Below, in pieces: positions 15,597 through 46,601 of a stretch of DNA of 64,000 bases; position 1 is the first letter of the stretch, and the number at the start of each line of letters is the position of its first letter. Source of the DNA: Granulicella mallensis (lineage in GTDB: Bacteria > Acidobacteriota > Terriglobia > Terriglobales > Acidobacteriaceae); the NCBI RefSeq assembly GCF_014203225.1, contig NZ_JACHIO010000012.1, positions 62,001-126,000 on the forward strand, read 5' to 3'. The position numbers and the translations under genes were made by a program. The notes under the pieces are model-generated. The model worked only from the letters and a program-made list of their open reading frames with translations, had not been told where the DNA came from and searched no databases.

Positions 15597-15694
15597 GTGC
15601 CGGGTCCTACGCGACGTATTCCCGCCAACCCCGCCAGGTCCGGAAGGAAGCAACGGTAACGGGTCGATACGGGCGCAGTAGGGAAACCCGGTAC
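15597..15694 (+). ncRNA. ffs: Signal recognition particle RNA, small bacterial type (4.5S)
   Basis: The invariant SRP domain IV core is present: CCAGGTCCGGAAGGAAGCAA with the GGTAACGGG side. The RNA closes with a terminal helix formed by GTGCCGGGT at 15597 and ACCCGGTAC ending at 15694, and CCTAC with GTAGG inside it. It is about 98 nt, so it has domain IV only and no Alu domain. It pairs with Ffh to target membrane proteins; the receptor gene ftsY is in the same window at 31567. Confidence 0.93.
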
Positions 15695-15821
15695 ATTTTC
15701 TTCCTCTCGGCACATCCCCGCAAACCACTGATTCCACAGACTTTTACTCCACTTTTATGATCGCGTGCCCCAGGCACGGTAAGATGCTCATTGTGGGCTT
15801 AGTACCTCGGAGGATTTGAGT

Positions 15822-45295: not shown

Positions 45296-45383
45296 AGCCC
45301 GGTGAGGCCATCAGGAATCTGCAAAGACGATTCGTGTCGCGACCTCGCCGAGAAAATTCCTTTGCGATATATCACTTTTTTTC

Positions 45384-45412
45384 TTGACTATGCGCCGCAC
45401 AAAATCTATACC
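45384..45412 (+). promoter_or_regulatory. Strong sigma-70-type promoter
   Basis: TTGACT (45384-45389), a 17-nt spacer, then TATACC (45407-45412), preceded by a T tract. It is the closest match to the -35/-10 consensus I saw in the window. The transcript would start about 45419. Confidence 0.65.
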
Positions 45413-45418
45413 TTCGTT

Positions 45419-45553
45419 AGTTGCTTCACATCGTGAATGCAGCATCGATGATTTTTGTCGATATGGGAGCGCAGGCAAACGCAACCAGGCAAAGCATCAA
45501 ACTAAAGGCAACACACTCGGGGAACGCGATACAGAGCGTTCCCCGAGGTGTTT
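45419..45553 (+). ncRNA. Candidate small structured RNA
   Basis: Runs from the predicted start of the strong promoter to a terminator stem of 12 bp (45516-45527 and 45536-45547, CTCGGGGAACGC/GCGTTCCCCGAG, 8-nt loop) followed by GTGTTT. The 5' two thirds can fold: GTTGC (45420) pairs with GCAAC (45481), enclosing two hairpins (TTCAC-GTGAA and ATCGA-TCGAT). It contains no open frame with a ribosome site. It could be a stand-alone RNA or a long leader of rsmE, whose start is 85 nt further on. It matches no RNA family I know. Confidence 0.45.
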
Positions 45554-45625
45554 AACACCCAATGTTTATAGGGTCATTCGCGTGCACGCCTCTATGTGCC
45601 CTGTCGTACATAGGCGCTCCCGCAG

Positions 45626-45631
45626 TATCCT
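45626..45631 (+). promoter_or_regulatory. -10 box (TATCCT) for leaderless rsmE
   Basis: TATCCT, 6 nt (ACGAGG), then the ATG at 45638. It shows rsmE can be expressed separately from the candidate RNA upstream. Confidence 0.5.
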
Positions 45632-45637
45632 ACGAGG

Positions 45638-46369
45638 ATGACGCGCCGCCGCTGGATCGCCGACACCTTCACCGACACAACCGCTTCGCTCACCGGCGAC
45701 CAGGCCGCTCATCTCGCGCGAGTGCTGCGCGCGGAGCCCGGACAAATCTTTGACGTCGTCGCCAACGGCTTCCTGCATCGCGCCGAGATCACGAGCGTCT
45801 CCGATAGCGAAGTCGTCTTCACGCTGCACGAGGAACTCGAAGCCGATGCCGCGCTGCCGGTGCATCTGCTGCTCGCTGTCTTCAAGTTCGATCACATGGA
45901 GTGGGGCATCGAGAAGGCCACCGAGCTCGGCGCGGAGCGCATCACGCCCGTGCTCGCTCGGCGCACGGAGAAGCATCTCTCCCAGGCTGCGGCGAAACGT
46001 GTCGAACGCTGGCGACGCATCGTGCGCGAGGCTGCGCAGCAGTCGCGGCGAAGCGATGTGCCTACAGTCGATGATCCGCAGACGTTGAAGGCCGCATTGC
46101 AGTCGGTGAGCGCGGAGACGAAGTTGCTGCTCGCCGAGACGGAGCAGGAGAACACGATCGCTGCGGCGTTGCAGCAAGCGAGTCAGCAAGTCAGCGAGTC
46201 AGCGAGTCAGTCCGTTGCTTTGGCCGTTGGTCCCGAGGGTGGCTGGACTGCCGAGGAGATGCAGCTCTTTACCGAACATGGATGGAAGCATGTCACGTTG
46301 GGACCGCGCATTCTGCGTGCCGAGACTGCAGCGATTGCGGGGTTGGCTATCTGTTCGGCCTTGCTTTAG
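45638..46369 (+). CDS. rsmE: 16S rRNA (uracil-1498-N3)-methyltransferase
   Basis: SPOUT methyltransferase that makes m3U1498 in the decoding centre. The N-terminal PUA-like domain starts MTRRRWIADTFTD...LTGDQAAHLARVLR. The knot domain has WGIEKATELGAERITPV, RWRRIVREAAQQSRR, AVGPEGGWTAEE and LGPRILRAETAAIAGLA. 243 aa. An 8-bp tandem repeat lies inside the gene before AVGPEGG, in the variable linker QQASQQVSESASQSVA. The TAG stop is the first triplet of the inverted-repeat element that follows. It is convergent to dnaJ, a common pairing. Confidence 0.93.
   Translation: MTRRRWIADTFTDTTASLTGDQAAHLARVLRAEPGQIFDVVANGFLHRAEITSVSDSEVVFTLHEELEADAALPVHLLLAVFKFDHMEWGIEKATELGAERITPVLARRTEKHLSQAAAKRVERWRRIVREAAQQSRRSDVPTVDDPQTLKAALQSVSAETKLLLAETEQENTIAAALQQASQQVSESASQSVALAVGPEGGWTAEEMQLFTEHGWKHVTLGPRILRAETAAIAGLAICSALL
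46181..46210 (+). repeat. 8-bp tandem repeat inside rsmE
   Basis: 3.75 copies of AGTCAGCG (first copy AGTCAGCA) encode the S/Q/E-rich linker of RsmE. Slippage by one unit would shift the frame; three units would keep it. Confidence 0.8.
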
Positions 46370-46577
46370 AGCAAGCCACCGTCGGGTGCCCCATCCTCGA
46401 CGCGCAGTTTCATCGCGCGGCAGGGTGGGGTATCGTGCGAAGCACGACCGTTCTTAGTTTGTAGAGGCGACGGTGGCCCGATTCATGAGAGCGGTCGTTT
46501 GCTATCGCAAGCGATACCCCACCCTGCCGCGCAAAACTGCGCGTCGAGGATGGGGCACCCGATTGTGGCTTGCTCTA
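46367..46577. repeat. Family C-like large inverted repeat (C3)
   Basis: 211-bp element. The left arm TAGAGCAAGCCAC plus GTCGGGTGCCCCATCCTCGA and GGCAGGGTGGGGTATCG is mirrored by the right arm, ending GTGGCTTGCTCTA. The middle is unpaired around AGTTTGTAGAGGCGACGG. The terminal TAG is the rsmE stop codon. The arms share the TAGAGCAA end with C1 and C2 but not the body. Confidence 0.8.
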
Positions 46578-46601
46578 CACAAGGGCTCGCCTAAAAACGA
46601 A

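Follow-up and report, generated by a model that had tools for sequence, protein, structure and literature searches.

A probable small RNA gene upstream of rsmE and its kinship to the mRNA of an ultra-small, lysine-rich peptide

Introduction

How the coding and non-coding functions of one transcript come to separate is an open question, and the known cases, such as SgrS, are few. Here, we ask what is encoded at positions 45384-45553, on the plus strand, of a 64,000-nucleotide stretch of Granulicella mallensis DNA (the window), and how it is related to similar loci in the same bacterial family. This one locus provides, within one family, 150 distinct coding and 40 non-coding versions, together with fossil start codons and what appears to be repeated loss of the reading frame. 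If this interpretation is true, the family contains a replicated natural experiment in which the RNA function of a gene is set apart from its peptide function. It also points to an undescribed gene, with a product as small as 12 residues and a promoter that is common to most of the sampled genomes of the family.

Small RNAs and dual-function RNAs are already known as kinds, and frame loss in some lineages has a precedent in SgrS. Within the literature searched, the gene and its ultra-small, lysine-rich product are new, as is the repeated loss of a frame between genera with fossils that can still be seen. No work on this RNA or peptide, and no small-RNA study of these soil bacteria, was found in the open-access literature searched.

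A promoter-to-terminator unit in the window

The unit starts at a -35 box, TTGACT (45384-45389), with a T-tract (45376-45382) just 5' of it that includes four invariant T columns in an alignment of 27 loci from the window's genus. A spacer of 17 nt leads to a -10 box, TATACC (45407-45412). Both boxes belong to a family-wide pattern, CTTGACW-N16-YTATAYMTTC, and the -10 box is also seen in the genus alignment. The predicted small RNA would run from 45419, a start inferred 7 nt past the -10 box, to 45553, and both of its ends are unmeasured. Within it, hairpin 1 (45420-45443) is followed by hairpin 2 (TCGATG...TGTCGA, about 45444-45462) and by a GGGAG element (45465-45469), which occupies the position of the ribosome site of relatives that carry an open reading frame (ORF). 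Three copies of the motif AGGCAA follow (45473-45478, 45487-45492, and 45506-45511), the third of which adjoins an intrinsic terminator (45516-45553). The terminator consists of a 12-bp stem, CTCGGGGAACGC/GCGTTCCCCGAG, with an 8-nt loop (45516-45547) and then a GTGTTT tail; the U-tract on its 3' side is short (GTGTTTAA). All of these features are on the plus strand. The fold of 45419-45560 has an energy of -57.8 kcal/mol compared with -33.9 kcal/mol (sd 3.9) for shuffled sequences (z -6.06), and none of 200 shuffles folded as low as the native sequence.

A preliminary description, made from the sequence alone, had proposed a strong promoter, TTGACT-17-TATACC, and a 12-bp terminator stem at this location. 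The positions of the promoter held and so did the stem. Taken alone, the promoter does not stand out from chance in the window: it has three mismatches to TTGACA-17-TATAAT, and nine sites with no more than three mismatches are present compared with 10.9 expected. The unit is judged to be real because it is conserved, being present in 27 of 28 genomes of the genus and, as judged by its promoter pattern, in 190 of the 300 family genomes, rather than because of promoter strength. The high expression that had been suggested remains an inference, without transcript data.

The unit had no match in Rfam, either at the gathering threshold on the window or at E 10 on 45350-45640, and none in a plasmid collection. 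A c-di-GMP-I-like appearance of GGCAAAC...GCAAAG is not supported by Rfam. Elsewhere in the window, a bacterial small SRP RNA at 15598-15696 (plus strand) was the only Rfam match at the gathering threshold (69.6 bits).

Conservation and covariation

A DNA search of 61 genomes identified the unit in 27 of the 28 genomes of the window's genus, and the sole genus genome without it (G021) is 54% complete. At the sensitivity of that search, the unit was found in none of the 33 genomes outside the genus. Among 26 aligned genus loci, GGGAGCGCAGGCAAACGC is invariant, and there is little variation across most of the stretch up to GGCAACACA. From GGGAG to the terminator the sequence is nearly invariant, yet the RsmE proteins of the genus are between 66.7 and 96.3% identical to that of the window.

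The structure of the RNA is shown by comparison. Across the genus, two-sided changes are present in 13 of 33 pairs and 95.7% of cells are paired, and none of 500 shuffles reached the observed count of two-sided changes, the paired fraction, or the covariation score. Slid versions of the structure drop to 34-49% paired. Further pair types were not above the shuffles (222 of 500 as high), and the covariation counts are inflated by the relatedness of the sequences. Hairpin 1 has two-sided changes in five of its ten pairs within the genus, where 91.7% of cells are paired, and 93.6% of cells are paired across 61 loci of the family. The terminator has two-sided changes in 8 of 17 pairs, with the outer stem extension counted in. 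Compensatory changes, whose absence would have refuted the original proposal, were found in hairpin 1 and in the terminator stem.

For hairpin 2, 95.8% of cells are paired in the genus, with no two-sided changes, and the hairpin is missing at the genus locus L022. Across the family, C-G replaces G-C at one pair in 19 of 61 loci and 86.5% of cells are paired. Hairpin 2 forms when the 5' domain is folded alone and is missing from the minimum-energy fold of the complete RNA from the window. The preliminary description had claimed two enclosed hairpins, which held in part: the second one of the single-sequence fold is not backed by comparison, which supports pairing at about 45444-45462 instead. 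At the level of the family (61 loci), the covariation score was above all 500 shuffles, and the number of pairs with two-sided changes was not (175 of 500 as high). A long-range pairing of GUUGC in hairpin 1 with a 3' GCAAC was rejected by eye because the 5' arm is GCUGC in many genus loci while GGCAACACA is unchanged.

Relation to rsmE

The neighbouring gene, rsmE (45638-46369, plus strand), has Pfam matches to Methyltrans_RNA (E 5.1e-50) and PUA_4 and lies outside the unit. In each of the 27 genus loci it comes after the unit, on the same strand, and at one of them (L021) it is 595 nt past the promoter. This arrangement raises the possibility that the unit is a cis-acting leader or attenuator of rsmE, with the intervening terminator able to allow read-through. 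Three observations count against it. First, a -10-like box, TATCCT (45626-45631, plus strand), is located outside the RNA and ahead of the rsmE start, and a box of this form (TAnnnT) is present 6-10 nt 5' of that start in 27 of 27 genus loci; we infer that its placement would fit a leaderless message with its own promoter. Outside the genus, 13 of the 66 ORF-bearing loci with an identified rsmE have the box, as do 4 of 11 ORF-less loci, so the argument is limited to the window's genus. Second, in the Edaphobacter group the unit and rsmE are at least 60 kb apart or on separate contigs in 12 of 12 genomes. Third, in deeper lineages rsmE was observed about 4-7 kb away on the opposite strand, which points to a loose neighbourhood that is older than the adjacency. 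A role as rsmE leader is considered very unlikely. The earlier suggestion that the unit need not be this leader held, on the basis of the box and the separation in the Edaphobacter group, and the proposed check of rsmE synteny showed adjacency throughout the genus loci and its absence in that group.

Some further observations were made around rsmE. In three Terriglobus-coded genomes (L052, L245, and L246) RsmE groups inside the window's genus, possibly because the rsmE region and the RNA were transferred together, or through error. In one genome of the Edaphobacter group (G215; L274 and L282), rsmE matches as two neighbouring pieces, which may reflect a frame break or a sequencing error. A long inverted repeat between rsmE and dnaJ in the window (46370-46590) was seen by eye, formed by gggtgccccatcctcgacgcgcagttt and its reverse complement further on, and could be REP-like or mobile.

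Homologues across the family and the lysine-rich peptide

The promoter pattern was identified in 190 of 300 family genomes, with no matches for a reversed control. In a class-wide sample it was present in 52 of 64 family genomes and in 1 of 186 others, where the single match is not a homologue by its sequence. The pattern undercounts, since three loci (L245, L246, and L052) carry the unit with GTTGAC. The covariance search of relatives that had been proposed was carried out with a model built from the genus, and it matched 66 of 200 family genomes (E 1 or better), including loci with a peptide frame plus the same promoter and terminator.

Homologues in other genera have the same promoter, 5' hairpins, and terminator, and most of them contain extra bases that make up a ribosome site, GGGAGAATAG, together with a frame, for example MATKKAAKKAAKKPAKKAAKKK. 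In most of the family loci read, the transcript is the predicted mRNA of a protein of 12-30 residues, half of them lysine (MATKKAAKKAAKK..., MATKKKAAKKKKH). The kinship of the unit to this peptide mRNA is shown by comparison, and descent of the RNA from it is very likely; such descent could not be seen in the window itself, which was all that was available to the preliminary description.

There are 150 distinct ORF-bearing loci and 40 distinct ORF-less loci. In the former, the peptide has 12 to 30 residues, of which 50.4% are lysine and 30.7% are alanine. Across codons 2-9, the first, second, and third positions have entropies of 0.34, 0.32, and 1.06 bits, and this concentration of variation at third codon positions is a coding signature. 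As inferred from its composition, the peptide is likely to bind nucleic acids. Four peptides of 21-30 residues had no match in Pfam or NCBIfam at E 1, in a scan that could not take peptides under 20 residues. A second type of peptide, with 12-17 residues and often ending in histidine (MATKKKAAKKKKH), is found in L063-L070, L090-L118, and other loci; it has the same promoter and terminator, and rsmE is not adjacent. A longer protein in one genome (L377, in G012) starts with MATKKAAAKKA and ends in a small domain (HHGSHHDDWLRAAKELGAE), which we take to be DUF2934-like, and it is possible that the peptide shares an origin with tails such as this one.

The scan of named genomes gave at least 117 stretches, with one evident chance match among them (L153, a Methanoperedens record). 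Some records named Granulicella are from outside the window's genus: the peptide frame is present in G. rosea and in Granulicella sp. S190, L60, and dw_53. The set of 150 and 40 loci omits L028-L034 (repeats), L153, L172 (cut), and L195 (N), along with loci that have an N among their first 200 bases and sequences that duplicate another across 170 nt. Three loci (L041, L071, and L256) lacked a promoter plus GGGAG by the expression used; L041 nevertheless shows the peptide frame.

Loss of the reading frame

The preliminary description had claimed that no open frame with a ribosome site lies inside the unit, and by sequence this held in 27 of 27 genus loci, none of which has a start codon (ATG, GTG, or TTG) 4-30 nt past GGGAG. 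Together with the promoter, the terminator, and the compensatory changes, the lack of a start codon supports, by comparison, the claim of a stand-alone small-RNA gene. We consider such a gene at 45384-45553 to be very likely. The gene is shown by comparison; its transcription is inferred, in the absence of transcript data.

The 40 ORF-less loci comprise 26 from the window's genus, seven with the Terriglobus code, including T. albidus, four with the Acidicapsa code, including A. dinghuensis, and three that are Edaphobacter-like. Comparison shows that the frame is absent in several branches while the RNA persists. In T. albidus and G177 (L048 and L039), a relic of the frame, GAG-GCG-ACA-AGA-ACG-GCG-AAA-AAG, can be read by eye, and in the same way ACG-GCA was read in L052, L245, L246, and L239, where relatives have ATG-GCA. 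No unambiguous fossil of the frame was found in the window's genus; ACGCAACCAAGGCAAAGCA is possibly a relic there or a fused 3' part, and the two cannot be distinguished. Where no fossil is seen, the direction of change is inferred.

The number of changes was assessed on trees of RsmE. In a tree of 96 rows, from which four rows without a full RsmE were left out, the starred branches force at least three changes of frame state. A tree thinned to 80 rows, without four rows that had been flagged as long or that joined a long row and without 12 of the 27 genus rows, gave four changes, with a bootstrap range of 3-4. The Edaphobacter-like ORF-less loci nest among frame-bearing Edaphobacter. One clade uniting Acidicapsa, the window's genus, and Terriglobus was rejected (p-AU 0.014), although this clade was named after the first tree had been seen. 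The tree is also that of a single gene and disagrees with the genus codes, as L052, L245, and L246 fall inside the window's genus. In sequence, Acidicapsa resembles the window's genus (AGGCAA-GCATCA...AAGGCAAC), a likeness that would have to be convergent under independent loss and that counts against it.

It could be argued that the window's genus continues to make a peptide by way of an unusual start, either ACG or an ATG or TTG overlapping GGGAG, and some genus loci do read ATGGGAGCG or TTGGGAGCG. Against this, L006, L010, and L012 read CGGGAGCG, and in other genus loci 1-nt indels (CC-AGG/CCAAGG) within an otherwise nearly invariant core shift the frame. We regard this explanation as very unlikely. 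A peptide gene that has moved was also sought: GGGAGAATAG-N2-8-ATGGC is present in 2 of the 28 genus genomes, with neither frame lysine-rich, and the peptide start pattern in 1 of 28, where it belongs to a longer protein that has a lysine/alanine start. The genus could still have a moved copy if its flanks and codons differ.

Another explanation is that the unit is a decaying pseudogene of the peptide gene, in which only the promoter and terminator are kept. In favour of this, the frame has been lost, and fossils are visible in Terriglobus-coded genomes. The near invariance of the stretch from GGGAG to the terminator, in spite of the divergence of RsmE, and the compensatory changes in the genus structure speak against decay, which we consider very improbable.

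Elements retained by the RNA

The ribosome-site sequence GGGAGAATAG occurs without any change in 145 of the 150 ORF-bearing loci. It is also exact in 10 of the 14 ORF-less loci outside the window's genus, where, in our reading, nothing is left to translate. In the 26 loci of the window's genus it does not occur, and GGGAGCGCAG is present instead.

The motif AGGCAA is found between the stop codon and the terminator in 96 of 149 ORF-bearing loci, compared with at most 7 in shuffles, and the other 53 do not have it there. Among ORF-less loci it is present in 38 of 39, with 103 copies in total and one locus without any; 23 of 25 loci of the window's genus have three copies. The terminator finder failed in one of the 150 ORF-bearing and one of the 40 ORF-less loci. 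AGGCAA as a general feature of terminators was rejected: it is within 30 nt upstream of none of 37 terminator-like sites in 1.2 Mb, and GGCAA is upstream of two of these 37 sites compared with 49 of 1200 random 30-mers.

Of the 150 ORF-bearing loci, 141 have the terminator core, GGGRNCGC..GCGNYCCC, as do 36 of the 40 ORF-less loci, and the T-run past the core stem is three or fewer at its longest in 80 of 177 loci. No similar core stem was found in 1.2 Mb of a chromosome from the same genus, in the part that excludes the locus.

Proposed function and partners

Loss of the protein in several branches, with the RNA kept, suggests that the RNA has its own job. In branches without the peptide, whatever function survives must reside in the RNA. 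A function at the level of the RNA in both forms, with and without the peptide, is inferred and appears likely, and the same holds for the joint proposal of a small-RNA gene, its descent from the peptide mRNA, and an RNA-level function in both forms. A bolder reading is of a family-wide dual-function RNA that turned purely non-coding in three or more branches, most of which multiplied AGGCAA. The dual function is inferred, and we favour this bolder reading by a narrow margin.

In most of the family loci read, the unit has one promoter, 5' hairpins, GGGAGAATAG, a frame of 12-30 codons, often AGGCAA, and a terminator conserved in sequence. The simplest explanation is that the transcript had two jobs, with that of the peptide dropped several times. 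The frame would have been lost in the window's genus, in Terriglobus, in Acidicapsa, and in an Edaphobacter-like branch, with the promoter, hairpin 1, AGGCAA (now mostly in two or three copies), and the terminator retained. The ORF-less RNA may then be a regulator in which the AGGCAA stretch, from hairpin 2 to the terminator, is left accessible, and this stretch would pair with a few mRNAs with the help of Hfq.

A base-pairing regulator that works with Hfq is a tentative proposal that falls a little short of being favoured; the pairing and the role of Hfq are inferred, without binding data. For Hfq, three matches over the cut-off are present in the window's genome (L285, L286, and L287; 97.6, 37.2, and 36.2 bits). 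At 874 predicted starts in 1.2 of the 3.93 Mb of one chromosome from the same genus, complements of the AGGCAA region showed no enrichment. TTGCCT occurred 12 times at these starts, and 43 of 60 permutations were as frequent or more; the corresponding values were 15 of 60 for TTTGCC and 21 of 90 for GTTGCC. It follows that the targets would be few or that the partner is a protein. Gene starts for this search came from a crude script and one genome, and a small regulon is not excluded.

The possibility of a protein partner leads to a different explanation, that the RNA serves as a decoy or a scaffold, bound by a protein that recognizes AGGCAA and the terminator stem. In its favour, AGGCAA is multiplied in most ORF-less RNAs while complements on the target side are unenriched, and the stem is conserved in sequence, not in pairing alone, with none like it in the 1.2 Mb searched. 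On the other hand, CsrA, the classic sponge partner, is unmatched: PF02599 had no matches in the window's genome, with control matches in 3 of 14 genomes, and a CsrA sponge of the CsrB type requires CsrA in the organism. To our knowledge, no protein has specificity for AGGCAA and the conserved terminator stem. A decoy is considered unlikely and is ranked below base pairing.

Comparison with known systems

Candidate non-coding RNAs have been described from Acidobacteria, including Acido-1 and Acido-Lenti-1 (RF01686 and RF01687; PMC2864571). Unlike these, and unlike 6S RNA, the unit matches no Rfam family even at E 10. Very short or tail-like proteins that are rich in lysine, and that presumably bind nucleic acids, include ribosomal bTHX and H1-like tails. 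The peptide is similar in being very short and lysine-rich, but the four peptides scanned have no match in Pfam or NCBIfam.

The closest parallel in organization is SgrS/SgrT of enteric bacteria, whose single small transcript carries a short frame and, from there to the terminator, a conserved stretch; the frame is missing in Yersinia and the start codon is missing in E. coli O157:H7 while the RNA is kept (PMC4021124). The locus described here likewise combines a short frame with a conserved stretch from frame to terminator, and some lineages are without the frame and retain the RNA. Homology to the SgrS family is not supported, as the unit has no Rfam match. The products also differ: SgrT, at about 40 residues, targets a glucose transporter, whereas the peptide here has 12-30 residues, half of them lysine. 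In contrast with SgrS, the presence or absence of the frame separates whole genera in this family.
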